From Acidobacteriota bacterium (GTDB lineage Bacteria > Acidobacteriota > Terriglobia > Terriglobales > Acidobacteriaceae): a stretch of 34,922 nucleotides of DNA. The position numbers were made by a program, and so were the translations under genes. Position 1 is the first letter of the stretch, and each line of letters begins with the position of its first letter. Positions 1,630 through 22,769 of this stretch are shown here, in pieces. The stretch spans positions 1-34,922 of the forward strand of contig QIAB01000067.1 of NCBI GenBank assembly GCA_003225455.1, given 5' to 3'. Under the pieces are notes generated by a model that was given only the letters and a program-made list of their open reading frames with translations, searched no databases and was not told the origin of the DNA.

Positions 1630-3135
1630 CTACAGATGACCTTCCATGAAGACGAAATACGAACATGTCCACAGCACCGTCGGAATGCTGGCGCGCGGGC
1701 GAGATGTCAGAATTATGTTGTATTCATCGCAGATGTCAATGCCCTCGATGGGCGATGCCGACGCTCGTGGCTCGACCAAGGCAAGATAGGACAAAAAATC
1801 ATAAACGTCATTTACCCGGTTTAAGTCCGGCACCGCGAAAGATAACGTGGTGTTTTCCGCTGCGAAATGCCATGCCAGCGATGCTGCAAGCGTAACTGCA
1901 CTTTCATACGCCGCTTCCGGCACCACTCCAGGCGGAGGATTATCGAAAACGATTCGCAATTTGCGATCGTCCTCACGGCTGAACTCGCGCACTTTGAGTG
2001 AACCCGATTTGGCGGTCGCCTTCCAATCCACGTGGCGAGCCGAATCTTCCGGCATGTATTCGCGGATGCGGTATAAGTCCGATCCTCGTCCTCGCGTGAA
2101 GCTTTCGAACTCGCCGGTGATCAGCGGAAGCATCTGAAAGAACTCATCAGCCGGCTCGACAGACGGATACACGATGATTTCGCGGGCTAGCGCAACGCGC
2201 CGTGTCTTCCGCAGAAAAGCGAAAGGAAAGCGCGTCGCTACTCCAAGCTTGTCCTGCTGATAACGTCCGCGGCGATCAAAGCGTAGTTCGAGATCTGCGG
2301 TGAGTTCGTTCTTTGCCGGAACGTACGGAAAATACGCCGCGCCTTGGAAGATACCTGGCGGAGGCAGAGCCTTCGACACGCGCCGTAGCTGGCGATCTGG
2401 AATTTGCAACCACTGCTTTTCCGCCGGGCGGCCGGGAGGGAATGAGAACTTCGCAGGTGTCCATTGCCAGTGCTTTGAAGCCCGCTCTTTCTTCAAGGCC
2501 AAGACGCTGATCGAGAAGGCGGGCGCCCAGCGCCGGCGATTTCGCAACACGATGGCCCCCGAAAACGCCGTACCAGCGAATACATGGTCCGGCAGCCGGA
2601 GCTCGACTTCCAGATCGCGTAGCATCGCCGCAGAAGCGATCCCGGAGATAAGAACCGCCGCCAGCATGGCTGCAACGATGATGTAGAGCAGGTTGTTGCC
2701 GGTATTAAGGGCTGCGATGCCAATCAGCAGCACTGTAACCACGTAGATGATTCCCACCGGGGTCACGTCATAGTCGACGGCGTCGCGAACGCGCGAAGTC
2801 GCCACGCGGCGGGCGAGATAAGGAACTGTCGTTAGCCCGACAATTGTCGCCAACAGCAACGCCAGCGAAGCGAAAATCAGGGTGGCCCAAAGATTGCCCG
2901 ACTCGCGCGAGACCGTGGAAAACATCGCGGCCCCGAAAGCCAACGTCAGCCCGACGATCGCCAGGAGGAAACGCACCCATGCTTCAGGAATTTCCAATTT
3001 CAGCCAGCGCGGAAGGCGTTTCTCAGTAGAGGACACCTGCGCCGGTGCTGTCCAGAGGTCAGGCATTTGGGGGGCTGGTATCAGGTTAACACCCATCGCT
3101 ATGCCCAAGGGAGGCACTCCTTTGAGGCTGGACAT
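1630..3135 (-). CDS. DUF58 domain-containing membrane protein
   Basis: About 500 residues with several hydrophobic helices in the first third (around residues 50-75, 80-105 and 125-170). The conserved DUF58 core follows in the last third (RGSDLYRIREYMPEDSARH, then VDWKATAKSG). DUF58 proteins have a von Willebrand A-like fold and are usually encoded beside MoxR AAA+ ATPases and transglutaminase-like proteins; no MoxR gene is seen here. The start is uncertain: 3135 (ATG), an in-frame TTG with AAAGGAG eight bases upstream, or the ATG 13 codons in. It is the downstream neighbour of the DedA gene (24-base gap), so co-transcription with it is plausible. Family assignment is secure, function is not. 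Confidence 0.85.
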   Translation of the reverse strand: MSSLKGVPPLGIAMGVNLIPAPQMPDLWTAPAQVSSTEKRLPRWLKLEIPEAWVRFLLAIVGLTLAFGAAMFSTVSRESGNLWATLIFASLALLLATIVGLTTVPYLARRVATSRVRDAVDYDVTPVGIIYVVTVLLIGIAALNTGNNLLYIIVAAMLAAVLISGIASAAMLRDLEVELRLPDHVFAGTAFSGAIVLRNRRRWAPAFSISVLALKKERASKHWQWTPAKFSFPPGRPAEKQWLQIPDRQLRRVSKALPPPGIFQGAAYFPYVPAKNELTADLELRFDRRGRYQQDKLGVATRFPFAFLRKTRRVALAREIIVYPSVEPADEFFQMLPLITGEFESFTRGRGSDLYRIREYMPEDSARHVDWKATAKSGSLKVREFSREDDRKLRIVFDNPPPGVVPEAAYESAVTLAASLAWHFAAENTTLSFAVPDLNRVNDVYDFLSYLALVEPRASASPIEGIDICDEYNIILTSRPRASIPTVLWTCSYFVFMEGHL

Positions 3136-18192: not shown

Positions 18193-19239
18193 ATGCCCCT
18201 CACAAAAGAGCAAGCTCTCGACCTGTTTCGCTCCGATGATCTGATCGGCATCGGCATGGAAGCCGACGCCGCCCGCCGCAAGCTGCATCCCGAGGGCGTG
18301 GTTACGTACATCATCGATCGCAACATCAACTACACAAATTTCTGTACGGAATATTGCACCTTCTGCGCGTTTTATCGGCCATTAAAGGGACCAAAAGCCA
18401 AAGAGGGATACATCCTCGAGTTCGAAACTATTTACGACAAGATTCGCGAGACGGTCGAACTGGGCGGTACTGGAGTGCTGATGCAGGGCGGGCTGCATCC
18501 GGACCTGAAAATCGACTGGCATGAAAAGATGTTGCGCGGCATCAAGCAGCGGTTTCCGAAGATTCATCTGCACTGCTACTCAGCTTCAGAAATCATCGCG
18601 ATTGCCGAATACAGCGGCCTGACGATTCGCGATACCATCGCTCGCTTGCGCGATGCTGGATTAGATTCCATTCCCGGCGGCGGCGCCGAGATTCTCGACG
18701 ACGAGGTTCGCTACCGCATCGCGCGGCTGAAATGCCTGACGGACGACTGGCTTAATGTGCATCGCACCGCGCACCAGCTTGGCATGCGCACCACGGCGAC
18801 GATGATGTTCGGCGTGGGCGAAACCTACGAGCACCGCGTCAATCACTTTCAGCGGCTCTACGATCTGCAGGAAGAAACCGGCGGATTCACCGCTTTCATC
18901 CCGTGGAGTTTCCAGCCGGCAAACACCGCGCTGGGAGGACGCCACTGGGATGAAGCAACCGCCGTTGAATACTTGAAAGTTCTGGCCATCTCGCGACTGT
19001 GTCTCTCGAATTTCCTCAACGTCCAATCAAGCTGGGTCACTCAAGGATTGAAGGTCTGCCAAATGGGCCTGCGCTTTGGCGGCAACGATGTCGGCTCGGT
19101 GATGCTGGAAGAGAACGTCGTTCGCGCTGCGGGCGTGACCAACTGCACAACGGAAGAAGAATTACGACGCATCATCCGCGACGCGGGGTTCAAGCCGGCG
19201 CAGAGGGACACGCTGTATAGGACGTATTTCCTGAATTGA
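18193..19239 (+). CDS. mqnC: Cyclic dehypoxanthinyl futalosine synthase (radical SAM)
   Basis: 348 residues. It cyclises dehypoxanthine futalosine in the futalosine menaquinone pathway. The radical-SAM cluster motif is C51-xxx-C55-xx-C58 (NFCTEYCTFCAFYR), followed by GGTGVLMQGGLHPDLKIDW and GGGAEILDDEVR. The form of the Cys motif and the GGLHP segment favour MqnC over MqnE. The C-terminus ends DTLYRTYFLN. Two partial, degenerate copies of its 3' end lie downstream (19614-19687 and 20006-20213). mqnB, mqnD and mqnE are not in the window. Confidence 0.93.
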   Translation: MPLTKEQALDLFRSDDLIGIGMEADAARRKLHPEGVVTYIIDRNINYTNFCTEYCTFCAFYRPLKGPKAKEGYILEFETIYDKIRETVELGGTGVLMQGGLHPDLKIDWHEKMLRGIKQRFPKIHLHCYSASEIIAIAEYSGLTIRDTIARLRDAGLDSIPGGGAEILDDEVRYRIARLKCLTDDWLNVHRTAHQLGMRTTATMMFGVGETYEHRVNHFQRLYDLQEETGGFTAFIPWSFQPANTALGGRHWDEATAVEYLKVLAISRLCLSNFLNVQSSWVTQGLKVCQMGLRFGGNDVGSVMLEENVVRAAGVTNCTTEEELRRIIRDAGFKPAQRDTLYRTYFLN

Positions 19240-19330
19240 AAGAGTGTGTGTGCCGGACGGTCACGCATGCGCTCGACTAGATGATCGCGGATCGCCGAAG
19301 GCAGATGCGACCAGGTTTCGATCTGCGGCA

Positions 19331-19585
19331 CTATTCACCAAAGACGAAACGGCCGAGTTCGTCACCGAGTTGCTTAGACTCGATCGGATCTTTCGAAGCA
19401 CGGAAGCGTTCCGCGAGTTCAAAGAAGGCTTTTTCTTTTTGCTTGCTGGCTTCGATTCCCAACTCAATCAACTCGACCAGAACGCGGTTGTCGCTCAGCC
19501 GACGCCGGCTCGCGATCGACTCGACTTGCTTAGCTAGCGGCTTCGGTAGAGTCACACTCCGCCGAACCTGTTTTGTGATTGCCAT
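19331..19585 (-). CDS. Ribbon-helix-helix (CopG-like) DNA-binding protein
   Basis: 84 residues from MAITKQVRRSVTLP. The N-terminal beta strand (RRSVTLPKPLAKQVESIA) and the helix pair ending in NRVLVELIELGIEAS fit a MetJ/Arc/CopG dimeric DNA-binding fold. The charged C-terminal tail resembles antitoxin tails that bind a toxin. No toxin gene is adjacent, so it is an orphan antitoxin or a stand-alone regulator. Start at 19585: a TATAAT ends seven bases before the ATG (19592-19597), giving an mRNA with almost no leader; a GTG at 19600 is the longer alternative. It lies between the real mqnC and the first degenerate mqnC tail. Confidence 0.7.
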   Translation of the reverse strand: MAITKQVRRSVTLPKPLAKQVESIASRRRLSDNRVLVELIELGIEASKQKEKAFFELAERFRASKDPIESKQLGDELGRFVFGE

Positions 19586-19586
19586 G

Positions 19587-19611
19587 GCACCATTATACAC
19601 CGTTATGGTGC
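19587..19611 (-). promoter_or_regulatory. Promoter-operator of the RHH gene
   Basis: GCACCAT (19587-19593) and ATGGTGC (19605-19611) form a perfect inverted repeat with an 11-base spacer. A perfect TATAAT on the minus strand (19592-19597) overlaps it and is followed directly by GGTGCC-ATG. RHH proteins typically bind short inverted repeats over their own promoter, so autorepression is a natural reading. No good -35 is visible. Confidence 0.45.
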
Positions 19612-19613
19612 AA

Positions 19614-19687
19614 CGCGGAGTTATTCGCGATGCGGAGTTCAGGCCGGCGCGGTGGGATACGCTGTATAGGACTTATTTTCTGAATTG
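19614..19687 (+). repeat. Degenerate copy of the mqnC 3' end (copy B)
   Basis: About 74 bases resemble the last part of mqnC (about 19166-19239), including GACGC/GATGCGGAGTTCA and ACGCTGTATAGGAC and ending CTGAATTGA. Read in the same frame it gives VIRDAEFRPARWDTLYRTYFLN and a stop, so the frame is preserved. It is followed by a GGCCTC hairpin that mqnC itself lacks but copy C also has. Confidence 0.8.
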
Positions 19688-19703
19688 ATGCGCCAAAAGG
19701 AAA

Positions 19704-19721
19704 CGGCCTCATTCGAGGCCG
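19704..19721 (-). terminator. Hairpin terminator downstream of the tRNA-like gene
   Basis: CGGCCTC/GAGGCCG (19704-19710 with 19715-19721), 4-nt loop. On the minus strand it is followed by TTTCCTTTTGG, a fair U-rich tail. It would end a minus-strand transcript that begins at or before the tRNA-like gene at 19857-19928. Confidence 0.55.
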
Positions 19722-19724
19722 CCC

Positions 19725-19741
19725 CAGCACTCCGTCAAAGT
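19725..19741 (+). repeat. 17-nt inverted copy of the tRNA anticodon arm
   Basis: CAGCACTCCGTCAAAGT here is the exact reverse complement of 19889-19905, which is the anticodon arm of the tRNA-like gene. The spacing is 147 bases. The corresponding place in unit C (near 20256) has a related but different sequence, so this segment belongs to the repeated unit. Confidence 0.85.
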
Positions 19742-19856
19742 CAGTTTAATTATCCTGCCGAGTCAGCATGTAATCAAGAGTTTTCGGAAGGAGAACCTCG
19801 CTCCGTCACCGGGCTCCCCCATAATGGAGCGCCTTCGCGAGCACCTGCTGAAGACA

Positions 19857-19928
19857 TGGACCTGACGGGAGTCGAACCCGCACCTGCCACTTTGACGGAG
19901 TGCTGTGCTGCCATTACACCACAGGCCC
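19857..19928 (-). tRNA. tRNA-like gene with abnormal anticodon loop
   Basis: Read on the minus strand: acceptor GGGCCTG/CAGGTCC (one G-U pair), D-arm GTG-TAATGGCAG-CAC, T-arm GCGGG-TTCGACT-CCCGT, discriminator A, no encoded CCA. These parts are sound. The anticodon stem is GCACT/AGTGG with a mismatch at its base, and the loop is CCGTCAA, which would give anticodon GTC (Asp) but has C instead of the near-universal U at position 33. The D-arm style is more like Gln-type genes. The amino-acid identity is therefore left open. The whole anticodon arm is duplicated in inverted form at 19725-19741. Confidence 0.7.
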
Positions 19929-20005
19929 ATTCCGGCGACGCTACGCAGTCTAAAGCCTAGAGTCACGGTCATGTGTCACACCCTTATCTGTGGATTCCTA
20001 AAACG

Positions 20006-20213
20006 GGTCTGCCAAGCTTGGCCTGCGCTTCGGCGGCAACGATGTCGGCTCGGTGATGCTGGAAGAGAACGTCGTCCGCGCGGGCGTGACTAATTGCACG
20101 ACTGAAGAAGAACCGCGACGCATCATTCGCGACTCAGGGTTCAAGTCGGTGCAGATGGGTACACTGTATAGGACGTACTTTCTGAATTAGCAGAGTCTGT
20201 GTGGGCCGGACAT
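20006..20213 (+). repeat. Degenerate copy of the mqnC 3' end (copy C)
   Basis: About 205 bases match mqnC from 19053 to just past its stop (GGTCTGCCAA through GCCGGAC) with scattered substitutions and one 3-base loss (GCTGCGGGC to GCGGGC). The frame stays open and reads LRFGGNDVGSVMLEENVV, then RAGVTNCTTEEE, ending TLYRTYFLN and TAG. There is no start or Cys cluster, so it cannot be a functional MqnC. It is followed by a second GGCCTC hairpin. Confidence 0.85.
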
Positions 20214-20233
20214 TCTTTTGTGACAAAAGAAAA

Positions 20234-20251
20234 CGGCCTCATTTGAGGCCG
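20234..20251 (-). terminator. GGCCTC hairpin after copy C
   Basis: CGGCCTC/GAGGCCG (20234-20240 with 20245-20251), 4-nt loop. On the minus strand it is followed by TTTTCTTTTGTC; on the plus strand by CTTGTTTCT. It may work in both directions. It is the counterpart of the hairpin at 19704. Further on in the same unit GGAGAGCC/GGCTCTCC (20327-20334 with 20348-20355) makes another hairpin. No gene is visible between 20252 and 20420. Confidence 0.5.
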
Positions 20252-20420
20252 CTTGTTTCTAGCACCCCCATCAAGGTCAAGTACATTATCGTGCTATAAG
20301 AGGCTGGAATCAATAATTGTTGTGCAGGAGAGCCACGCCCCGTCATCGGCTCTCCCGTTCTGAAACTCCCCGATCGCTGGATCTTCCGCTTAACATCGTC
20401 AGCACGCCTAGACGGGATTC

Positions 20421-20550
20421 CGTGGAAGAGCGGCTTTTCAAAGCCACGATAGCGTCCGTCCAAATGGCCCCGCCCTTTAGGGCCGTGGCGGGCTGAAGCC
20501 CGCCGATCTTATCTTGACTGTACGCGGCCGTGAATGGCCGCTCTTCCACG
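20421..20550. repeat. REPIN (paired REP palindrome), copy 1
   Basis: Ends are perfect 14-bp inverted repeats CGTGGAAGAGCGGC (20421-20434) and GCCGCTCTTCCACG (20537-20550). Inside are GCCCTTTAGGGC and GCGGGCTGAAGCCCGC palindromes and GCGGCCGTGAATGGCCGC. The same pieces recur at 22018-22193 and 22722-22786, and a RAYT gene lies nearby, as expected for REP elements. The following TTTCATAAA...GGAATTTCCACAG also recurs after copy 2. Confidence 0.85.
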
Positions 20551-20593
20551 AGGTTTCATAAACCCCATCTATGGAATTTCCACAGGAGGCTGG

Positions 20594-20623
20594 CCCAGCC
20601 TTTGCGGTTTTTCAAAGGCTGGG
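20594..20623. repeat. Perfect 11-bp hairpin downstream of the AIPR gene
   Basis: CCCAGCCTTTG (20594-20604) and CAAAGGCTGGG (20613-20623), 8-nt loop. In the direction of the AIPR gene it follows the stop by about 33 bases but has no T-tract, so it may be an mRNA 3' end stabiliser or weak terminator. Confidence 0.5.
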
Positions 20624-20655: not shown

Positions 20656-21843
20656 TCACGAACGGCTTAAGTAAGCCACTTGGGCGGCCTGATAGCATGC
20701 TTGCCACACGAGTGGTGACTTACCCGTTTTTGAAGGATTTCGCGCGTCGAGGGCGAAATTCCCAATAGTATCCGCGAGCGTCTCGCCTAGTTGCCCTTTA
20801 AGTAAAGTAAGAGGATCAACCCCTTTGCCCCATGCGTAGCGCCCAGACTTTTCCACCAGAAGTGCACGGAAAGCCGCCAAAACCGGGTAAACGAATCCAG
20901 CTGGCACTCCGTATTTCGATTCCTGGCCGATAAACAGCAATTGAGCCCTGCGCTTGCCATCGTAGGTTGTGACCCCTGTAAGTTTTCCGAATTTGCCACC
21001 AGCCACTTCGCCGCTTTTACCCCGTACCCTGTTGTAAAGATCTGGAAGCATCAACTGCACATGGTCGTATAGTTCGAGAATGTCCGAGGCGAGAGTATAG
21101 ATCTTCTCGTAGTTGGCCTTGTGATCGGAGAAGTGCTGAAGACAGGCCGATTTGGAGCGATATGCGTTAATTGGATGAACCCGCTCGCTGAAGTAGGCGC
21201 GATCGAAGCACGTGAGAATTGCAATAACTTCTCGGACGTCGATCGGCTTAGAGCCGCCGTCGTCGAGAAGTTCATGTTCTTTATAGGCAATCAGGCCTGA
21301 GTAGTGGTGTAGCGCGAGTGCCCTCTTGAGTTTCTCGAACTCGCCCTGCAGGTTCATCAGACTCTGGTCACGTACTTGGTTCGAGGTGTTCCGGGCGTCA
21401 ACAAGCGTCGGGATCTCTTCTTGCTTAAAACCCTCGAGGATTTCAAGCTTCACGTATTGGGGCTCCTGCAATGTTTCCCGTTCCTCCAGCAGGATATTGT
21501 AGGTGTGGCCTCCATCGAGCAATCCGTGCAGATCCGGATCCGCCAGCGTTAGCGTAAGTTGAGAAGTTTGATTGTTGAAAGAAACCGACTCTGCGGCAAG
21601 CACGATCCCGCGATTCAGGAAGACAAACAGCTCGGGGTTATCGTGCACGCTCTCCCTGATTGCCTTAGGCACCGCCCCTGAGAGCTTTGGGTCGCGGACG
21701 TTGATTTTTCGCCACGCACTCAAATCCGGCAAATCGCGCACGTCCACCACGGCTATGTAATCGCGGTAACCTTGCTTAAGGAACGGGGTTTCTACGTGAC
21801 GGAAAGAAGATACGGGCAGCACAAAACGAGTAGACTTGTTCAT
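20656..21843 (-). CDS. AIPR-like (abortive infection phage resistance) family protein
   Basis: 395 residues. The middle shows the AIPR pattern: NPELFVFLNRGIVLAAESV (about 69-87), a Gly-rich GLLDGGHTYNIL (about 107-118) and DARNTSNQVRDQSLMNLQ (about 149-166). AIPR proteins occur in phage-defence settings, but the mechanism is not well established and the match is judged from motifs only. A related DGQHR/DndB-like assignment is possible. The ribosome site is weak (AAAGGT before ATGTATGAAC). It stands alone on the minus strand between two REPINs, with no restriction or toxin partner visible, and is probably acquired DNA. Confidence 0.65.
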   Translation of the reverse strand: MNKSTRFVLPVSSFRHVETPFLKQGYRDYIAVVDVRDLPDLSAWRKINVRDPKLSGAVPKAIRESVHDNPELFVFLNRGIVLAAESVSFNNQTSQLTLTLADPDLHGLLDGGHTYNILLEERETLQEPQYVKLEILEGFKQEEIPTLVDARNTSNQVRDQSLMNLQGEFEKLKRALALHHYSGLIAYKEHELLDDGGSKPIDVREVIAILTCFDRAYFSERVHPINAYRSKSACLQHFSDHKANYEKIYTLASDILELYDHVQLMLPDLYNRVRGKSGEVAGGKFGKLTGVTTYDGKRRAQLLFIGQESKYGVPAGFVYPVLAAFRALLVEKSGRYAWGKGVDPLTLLKGQLGETLADTIGNFALDARNPSKTGKSPLVWQACYQAAQVAYLSRS

Positions 21844-22304: not shown

Positions 22305-22769
22305 GTGGATTTCCGTCGAATGTTCTTCGTTACGACCGTGACTTGGCAGCGCACGCCATTATTCCGCAATCAGGAGAAAGCCGAGCTGATGTTGGACGTG
22401 CTGGCGCACTATCAGGGCCGGAGAAAATATCTTCTTCACGAGTTCGTGATCACGCCTGATCATCTCCATCTGCTGATTACGCCGGCAGAAGGTATCTCGT
22501 TGGAGCGTGCGCTCCAGCTAATCAAAGGCGGTTTTTCGTACAGGCTTGGAAAATCGAAGAGAGGGTTGGTGTGGCAGGAGAGCTTCACCAACCATCGAAT
22601 TCACGATGAACATGATTTCGAAAAGCACGCGGAATACATTCGAATGAATCCAGTGCGGGCGAGAATGGCGGAGTGGCCAGGTTTGTATCCGTCCTCGTCG
22701 GCTGGTGTGACACGGGGCTGCAGCGGGCTGAAGCCCGCTTGTCCGAATCTCGATCTTACGCGGCCATAA
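22305..22769 (+). CDS. REP-associated tyrosine transposase (RAYT)
   Basis: 154 residues of the TnpA_REP / Y1 (HUH) family, single-strand DNA nucleases that bind REP hairpins. The N-terminal MFFVTTVTWQRTPLF and HEFVITPDHLHLLITP contain the HUH metal site (H-L-H), and HAEYIRMNPVRARMAEWPG carries the presumed catalytic Tyr. The gene begins with GTG at 22305 (ATG at 22320 possible). It lies 111 bases after REPIN copy 2, and its own last 20 or so codons run into a REP sequence (CSGLKPACPNLDL is encoded by the REP palindrome). It is therefore the likely source of the REPs here. Confidence 0.88.
   Translation: MDFRRMFFVTTVTWQRTPLFRNQEKAELMLDVLAHYQGRRKYLLHEFVITPDHLHLLITPAEGISLERALQLIKGGFSYRLGKSKRGLVWQESFTNHRIHDEHDFEKHAEYIRMNPVRARMAEWPGLYPSSSAGVTRGCSGLKPACPNLDLTRP

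Follow-up and report, generated by a model that had tools for sequence, protein, structure and literature searches.

The stretch analysed here (the window: all 34,922 nucleotides (nt) of contig QIAB01000067.1, from an Acidobacteriota bacterium) carries on its minus strand a tRNA-like gene and, downstream of it, an inverted copy of the anticodon arm of that gene. The match is exact over 17 nt (19725-19741 and 19889-19905), as the first-pass annotation of the sequence had noticed. The downstream region also contains a promoter-like sequence and a terminator-like hairpin (Table 1), an arrangement that points to a second gene encoding an antisense RNA directed against the anticodon of the tRNA.

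Table 1. Positions of the RNA module and of the orphan cassette in the window
Feature	Position	Strand	Basis and details
tRNA-like gene	19857..19928	-	ARAGORN and Rfam; alanine-type acceptor, anticodon GUC, loop CCGTCAA (C33)
tRNA positions 24-40, the part that the predicted antisense RNA would cover	19889..19905	-	17 nt, exact
Trailer hairpin HP2	19789..19820	-	apical UGACGGA (19808-19802) complements the anticodon loop; fold z -2.4
Predicted sigma70 promoter of the antisense RNA	19749..19777	-	TTGATT (19777-19772), 17 nt, GATAAT (19754-19749); position conserved in the family
Predicted antisense RNA, about 52 nt	19692..19743	-	5' part (19741-19725) complements the anticodon arm; start from promoter spacing
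Predicted intrinsic terminator of the antisense RNA	19693..19721	-	CGGCCTC-GAAT-GAGGCCG, then TTTCCTTTT; sequence and fold
Orphan cassette: trailer-type hairpin with anti-anticodon-like loop	20327..20356	-	alignment with the intact module
Orphan cassette: promoter TTGATT-17-GATAAT	20285..20313	-	promoter scan
Orphan cassette: anti-arm-like sequence (20281-20259) and terminator stem (20254-20231)	20221..20281	-	scan and alignment

The tRNA-like gene and its family

ARAGORN called the gene a tRNA-Asp(GTC) (19928-19857, minus strand), and Rfam agreed, with 54.4 bits for RF00005 against a gathering cut-off of 29, which places the gene among the tRNAs; the covariance model R2 of the family described below gave 92.5 bits. 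Both the tRNA-like gene and the loop CCGTCAA with C33 had been annotated correctly at first pass. The acceptor consists of G1-C72, G2-C71 and G3:U70 with A73, and no CCA is encoded; CCA is encoded at 28 of the 30 tRNA loci of the same genome that were read out as a comparison set. Among these 30 loci the best match was tRNA-Ala(GGC), with 74% overall, and all 15 positions of acceptor and discriminator, including G3:U70 and A73, are shared with it. The real tRNA-Asp of the genome has G73, an encoded CCA and no G3:U70. The tRNA-Asp genes of Streptomyces phage BRock and Microbacterium phage Cece, which were found to be similar by BLAST, also turned out to be ordinary, with G73 and without the complement. 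An ordinary tRNA-Asp is thus ruled out by A73 and G3:U70, and a damaged tRNA-Asp is ruled out because alanine identity elements are characteristic of the whole family of this gene.

Alanine tRNAs are classically identified by G3:U70 together with A73; for G3:U70, this is also documented in the literature (PMC11415595). As the acceptor is identical to that of the genome's own tRNA-Ala(GGC) and the anticodon is GUC, the acceptor points to alanine and the anticodon to aspartate. By its sequence, the tRNA is therefore one of dual identity, in which identity elements and anticodon disagree.

Further members of the family were sought by BLAST of 61 genomes, by covariance models built from the matches and by one pattern scan of GTDB genomes, which together yielded 47 distinct members. 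It should be noted that U70 and A73 were prescribed by the pattern used for GTDB, but not in the BLAST and covariance searches; the 16 members found without this constraint (14 aligned and two outside the alignment) agree. Every one of the 45 aligned members has G3:U70 and A73, whereas covariation is seen at other acceptor pairs. The anticodons of these 45 are GUC (33), GCG (6), GCC (4), GCA (1) and AUC (1), and an alanine anticodon (NGC) is found neither in the window tRNA nor in any other family member. Position 33 is U in 33 members, C in 11 and A in one.

The tRNA fold of the family is supported by covariation in all four helices, and the T-loop and D-loop landmarks of elongator tRNAs are retained. 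The basal mismatch of the anticodon stem that had been reported at first pass exists in the canonical fold (G27-G43), but the family fits another model better: 43 of 45 members have a standard pair at 27-44, of three types, against only 12 of 45 with one at 27-43. The stem is therefore described better by the pairs G27-C44 and C28-G43 and a bulge at nucleotide 42.

With one exception, all 47 members come from Terriglobia (Acidobacteriota). Genomes that carry the tRNA together with its downstream complement (the module) have labels such as Acidobacteria, Terriglobia, Candidatus Sulfotelmatobacter or Acidobacteriaceae, and all or nearly all of them are metagenome-assembled. The exception, a viral contig (L129, IMGVR_UViG_3300021181_000441), which encodes a phage major head protein, has a module at 2943-3014 with a matching antisense element. 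The strict cut-off was passed by 11 of 399 genomes of the class, one of which (G158) contains an ordinary tRNA-Ala, and a phylum-wide draw of genomes gave no further genome with a family member. Pattern matches in Actinomadura and in archaea were rejected as ordinary tRNA-Ala with an alanine anticodon, in which the conserved module is absent. The Actinomadura tRNA-Ala(UGC) genes (L073 and others, mostly in tRNA clusters) have the body pattern GGGCYYG-TGGTGTAA in common with the family, which may reflect the source of the tRNA body or convergence. At L088, one of the rejected loci, the single complement match, of 10 nt, lies within its adjoining tRNA.

The complement of the anticodon arm and its predicted gene

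In nearly every family member the anticodon arm is exactly complemented about 75-120 nt downstream of the tRNA. The exact complement has a mean length of 13.7 nt (n = 47), compared with 6.7 nt when tails are swapped, 5.85 nt upstream and 5.85 nt in shuffled tails. For canonical tRNAs of the same genome the values are 5-9 nt, and 9 nt is also the maximum among 122 phage tRNAs that share the D-arm. Chance is excluded because one family member after another shows the relation at a fixed distance, and control tRNAs do not exceed 9 nt. Position by position, Watson-Crick pairing over 46 modules (excluding L104, where the assembly has a gap) is 100% at 34-36, 91-98% at 27-33, 96% at 37 and 80% at 38, and fades on both sides; the pairing register was picked to maximise pairing, for which the swap control allows.

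The 46 modules have 27 different sequences at positions 30-39, with several anticodons, and the preservation of pairing across them amounts to strong covariation that is centred on the anticodon. At loci that share their upstream flank (close to mqnC or to a glycosyltransferase gene), the anticodon is GUC in L111 and L134 and GCC in L097 and L114, and the complement is altered in step. Orthologues share the loop CCGTCAA, and nearly all members have an inverted copy specific for their own arm at a similar distance, which argues that arm and complement are kept complementary by selection.

The pairing is also specific within genomes. Ten genomes have two or three modules each, and in these the antisense element and the tRNA of the same module pair over 14.0 nt with -35.5 kcal/mol on average, compared with 5.3 nt and -18.3 kcal/mol across modules. 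For the two modules of the window genome, the own pairs have -36 and -42 kcal/mol, and pairs with the tRNA of the other module about -18 to -19 kcal/mol, which falls within the background of canonical tRNAs (-15 to -30 kcal/mol for the tRNAs tested). Such insulation is typical for antisense-controlled addiction pairs. The anti-loop of the second module has 6 nt in common with the loop of the canonical tRNA-Asp.

Between tRNA and complement, the family has a promoter of the form TTGAC or TTGAT, 17 nt, GATAAT or TATACT, and the complement begins a few nucleotides past the -10 box. Of 46 modules, 42 have at least nine of the 12 promoter bases, a score attained by 4.6% of shuffles; intrinsic terminators occur in 40 of the 45 family tails, compared with 2.4% of shuffles. 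An independent scan of 19600-20600 detected only two promoter-like sites, both on the minus strand (19777-19749 and 20313-20285) and each ahead of a complement-like sequence. Because a near-consensus sigma70 promoter usually precedes the complement and a terminator follows it, the antisense is probably a separate RNA of about 50-75 nt; a comparison of the antisense part with Rfam at a permissive threshold revealed no convincing RNA family. The trailer of the pre-tRNA forms one or two hairpins, the second of which exposes an anti-anticodon in its loop, and family-wide the trailer's own complement to the anticodon is 6.4 nt long, compared with 4.4 nt in shuffles. The first-pass annotation had suggested that the primary transcript could mask its own anticodon arm. 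Masking of the arm is supported, but a separate antisense RNA acting in trans is likelier than a single transcript.

Upstream of many family tRNAs (for example L082, L104 and L131), at a distance of about 40-55 nt, a TGTGA(C) motif recurs, at times as TCACA-N7-TGTGA, together with a weak promoter; it is possibly the site of a regulator.

The repeated unit and the genomic neighbourhood

The 3' end of mqnC is present three times in the window (19066-19252, 19623-19688 and 20020-20203, with the true end of the gene at 19239), and the repeated B/C unit is a duplication of this end along with the RNA module. The inverted arm had rightly been assigned to a repeated unit: the second copy, C (about 20356-20221, minus strand), when aligned with the intact module, retains a hairpin of its own along with promoter, anti-arm and terminator. 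At this orphan cassette no tRNA scored more than 5.3 bits. Its two anti-loops now disagree with each other, as expected for a cassette without a tRNA partner. It is the one orphan antisense cassette, found in the window without a systematic search for orphans, and, with the gap locus set aside, 46 of 46 tRNAs have an antisense element.

Where the tRNA of the second unit is missing, there is an inverted repeat (20421-20550) with 28-nt arms and 74 nt between them, which resembles repetitive extragenic palindromic elements or miniature inverted-repeat transposable elements, and a Y1 (IS200-like) transposase is encoded at 22305-22769. An open reading frame of 84 amino acids (19334-19585, minus strand), with a promoter-like sequence ahead, lies between the first two mqnC tail copies; by eye it resembles ribbon-helix-helix antitoxins, and it has no Pfam match. 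A protein of the AIPR family, named for abortive infection phage resistance (PF10592, E 2e-30), is encoded next to these RNA genes, at 20659-21843 on the minus strand; a related protein (family F38) is encoded some 4 kb away from module L133.

No common protein partner was detected among the loci, that is, no recurrent neighbour family or enzyme. The neighbours go by subgroup and are mqnC, glutaminyl-tRNA synthetase, rimM/trmD or a UvrD-like helicase, names that were read from sequence, with a Pfam check for mqnC only. Seven modules (L076, L096, L121, L122, L123, L132 and L135) adjoin a glutaminyl-tRNA synthetase-like gene, mostly tail-to-tail, and three (L072, L082 and L104) adjoin rimM/trmD-like genes.

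A possible antisense-locked missense tRNA

The anatomy of the module, its covariation, the pair specificity, the alanine identity elements and the distribution are what the sequences show. The explanation preferred here, which is judged to be reasonably probable, is a two-RNA module in which a missense Ala-tRNA would be held off by an antisense RNA. The first gene would produce a tRNA with alanine identity (G3:U70, A73) and a foreign anticodon, in the window that of aspartate; given its identity elements, alanyl-tRNA synthetase (AlaRS) should charge it with alanine. When free, the charged tRNA would insert alanine at wrong codons (Asp, Arg, Gly or Cys). The second gene, which has the same direction and its own putative promoter in the downstream spacer, would produce a short antisense RNA, the 5' part of which would pair with tRNA positions of about 27-38, including all three anticodon bases, and thereby bar the tRNA from decoding. 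The trailer hairpin with its anti-anticodon may lock the unprocessed precursor in cis. Upon loss of the presumably short-lived antisense RNA, caused by loss of the locus, phage shut-off or stress, release of the stable tRNA would lead to mistranslation.

With a stable tRNA and a short antisense RNA that is transcribed strongly, the outcome would follow the logic of an RNA-only toxin-antitoxin system or of inducible mistranslation, and the device is probably one of the two. An invariant charging identity, combined with an antisense that always lies over the anticodon, suggests that the danger resides in decoding. A more specific version is tentative and somewhat less probable, namely an RNA-only addiction or abortive-infection module, in which the alanine-chargeable tRNA with a foreign anticodon would be the toxin, by statistical missense, the anti-anticodon RNA the antitoxin, and the arms would diversify against cross-talk within the same genome.

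Several points weigh against an antisense-locked missense tRNA. It presupposes that both RNAs are expressed, that AlaRS charges the tRNA, that the ribosome uses it, that it is toxic and that the two RNAs have unequal lifetimes. Length, start and instability of the antisense RNA are predictions, and a promoter for the tRNA gene itself was not clearly identified. Decoding should be weakened by C33 (11 of 45 members) or A33 (one) and by the bulge in the anticodon stem. At the orthologous locus near mqnC the anticodon has drifted (GUC, GCC, AUC), so no single recoding is demanded. Lastly, the modules flank housekeeping genes, with no evident defence islands or plasmids.

Weakened decoding by C33 and the bulge would leave room for a use of the Ala-tRNA outside the ribosome, for example as donor of alanine to lipid, cell wall or peptide synthesis, with the anticodon arm serving as a handle for antisense control of its level. 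Invariant charging elements next to a drifting anticodon would fit this idea, as would the reduced ribosome use expected from C33, A33 and the bulge. However, the loci have no neighbouring enzyme in common, the antisense is centred on the anticodon with 100% pairing, a neutral handle would not require the absence of alanine anticodons, and the T-loop and D-loop landmarks are those of elongator tRNAs, which together make this alternative unlikely.

The next candidate, and also an unlikely one, is that the complement has no role in trans and clamps folding or processing within one long pre-tRNA transcript, from which 3' maturation would free the tRNA. The trailer hairpin with its anti-anticodon loop is contained in the precursor, and all elements lie on one strand with a single terminator at the end, but a clamp would have no need of the conserved near-consensus promoter right before the complement. 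Both could hold jointly, a clamp in cis and a separate antisense RNA.

Fragments of tRNAs can act as sponges of small RNAs, and the roles might be reversed, with the short RNA as the effector on other targets (an mRNA or canonical tRNA-Asp, for instance) and the tRNA-like RNA soaking it up. The 6 nt that the anti-loop of the window genome's second module shares with the canonical tRNA-Asp loop would be in line with such a decoy. Yet the pairing also involves stem sequence particular to each module, the canonical tRNAs that were tested form duplexes at background level (-15 to -30 kcal/mol, against -36 and -42 kcal/mol), the usual bacterial tRNA set has no counterpart of the GCG members, and invariant G3:U70 and A73 would be superfluous in a sponge, so that this explanation appears improbable. 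Template switching from the adjoining inverted copy, which the first-pass annotation gave as one explanation of the arm, or decay of a tRNA pseudogene, has practically no probability left in spite of the exact inverted repeat and the degenerate second unit nearby, as it is refuted by orthologues with the same loop and by compensatory changes in the stems and in the tRNA-antisense duplex in many species.

If the antisense-locked missense tRNA is real, a code-breaking tRNA would be kept under an antisense lock, and mistranslation would be a regulated or weaponised activity. A tRNA would join the toxins and the anticodon the targets of antisense RNAs, and the module would provide synthetic biology with a natural, orthogonal and switchable missense suppressor.

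Its closest parallels combine only some of these features. The tRNA-ProX of Streptomyces and Kitasatospora are dual-identity, mistranslating tRNAs (PMC11415595). As in the family described here, the identity of the body and the anticodon belong to different amino acids, several anticodons occur per body, and the distribution in soil bacteria is sporadic; the differences are that tRNA-ProX has proline identity and no described antisense RNA, whereas the present family has alanine identity and a predicted antisense RNA gene of its own. Genes of tRNA-ProX often adjoin an isoform of prolyl-tRNA synthetase. Allo-tRNAs likewise occur in Acidobacteria and are suggested suppressors, but they have 8/4 or 9/3 acceptor branches and serine identity elements (PMC7609411), and with its 7/5 branch and alanine identity the family is not one of them. 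The Bacillus cereus pseudo-tRNA tRNAOther (PMC3399842) is also a tRNA-like gene outside the normal set, with a regulatory role; it belongs to another phylum, and the abstract of that source mentions no antisense partner for it. In tRNAs with 4-bp anticodon stems (PMC13092985) the terminal stem pair is open, as it is here in the canonical fold, whereas the covariation of the family supports 27-44 and 28-43 with a bulged 42.

Type VIII toxin-antitoxin systems consist of an RNA toxin and an RNA antitoxin, for example SdsR/RyeA and CreTA (PMC12737573, PMC9458426). Two adjacent RNA genes, one of which complements the other, conform to this type as far as sequence can tell; both partners would be small RNAs, and CreT toxins act on translation as well. 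In contrast, CreA represses transcription through a CRISPR (clustered regularly interspaced short palindromic repeats) effector, while the toxicity of the tRNA module is a prediction, and no recurrent neighbour family was present at the loci, where cas genes were not searched for. To our knowledge, no type VIII toxin is an aminoacyl-accepting tRNA and no antitoxin targets an anticodon. Hybrid mistranslating tRNAs (tRNA-ProX, PMC11415595) and RNA-RNA toxin-antitoxin pairs (PMC12737573, PMC9458426) are already known. The literature searched (which did not cover Mukai 2017 on Acidobacteria tRNAs) contained neither a dedicated antisense gene against a tRNA anticodon nor a tRNA as a toxin.
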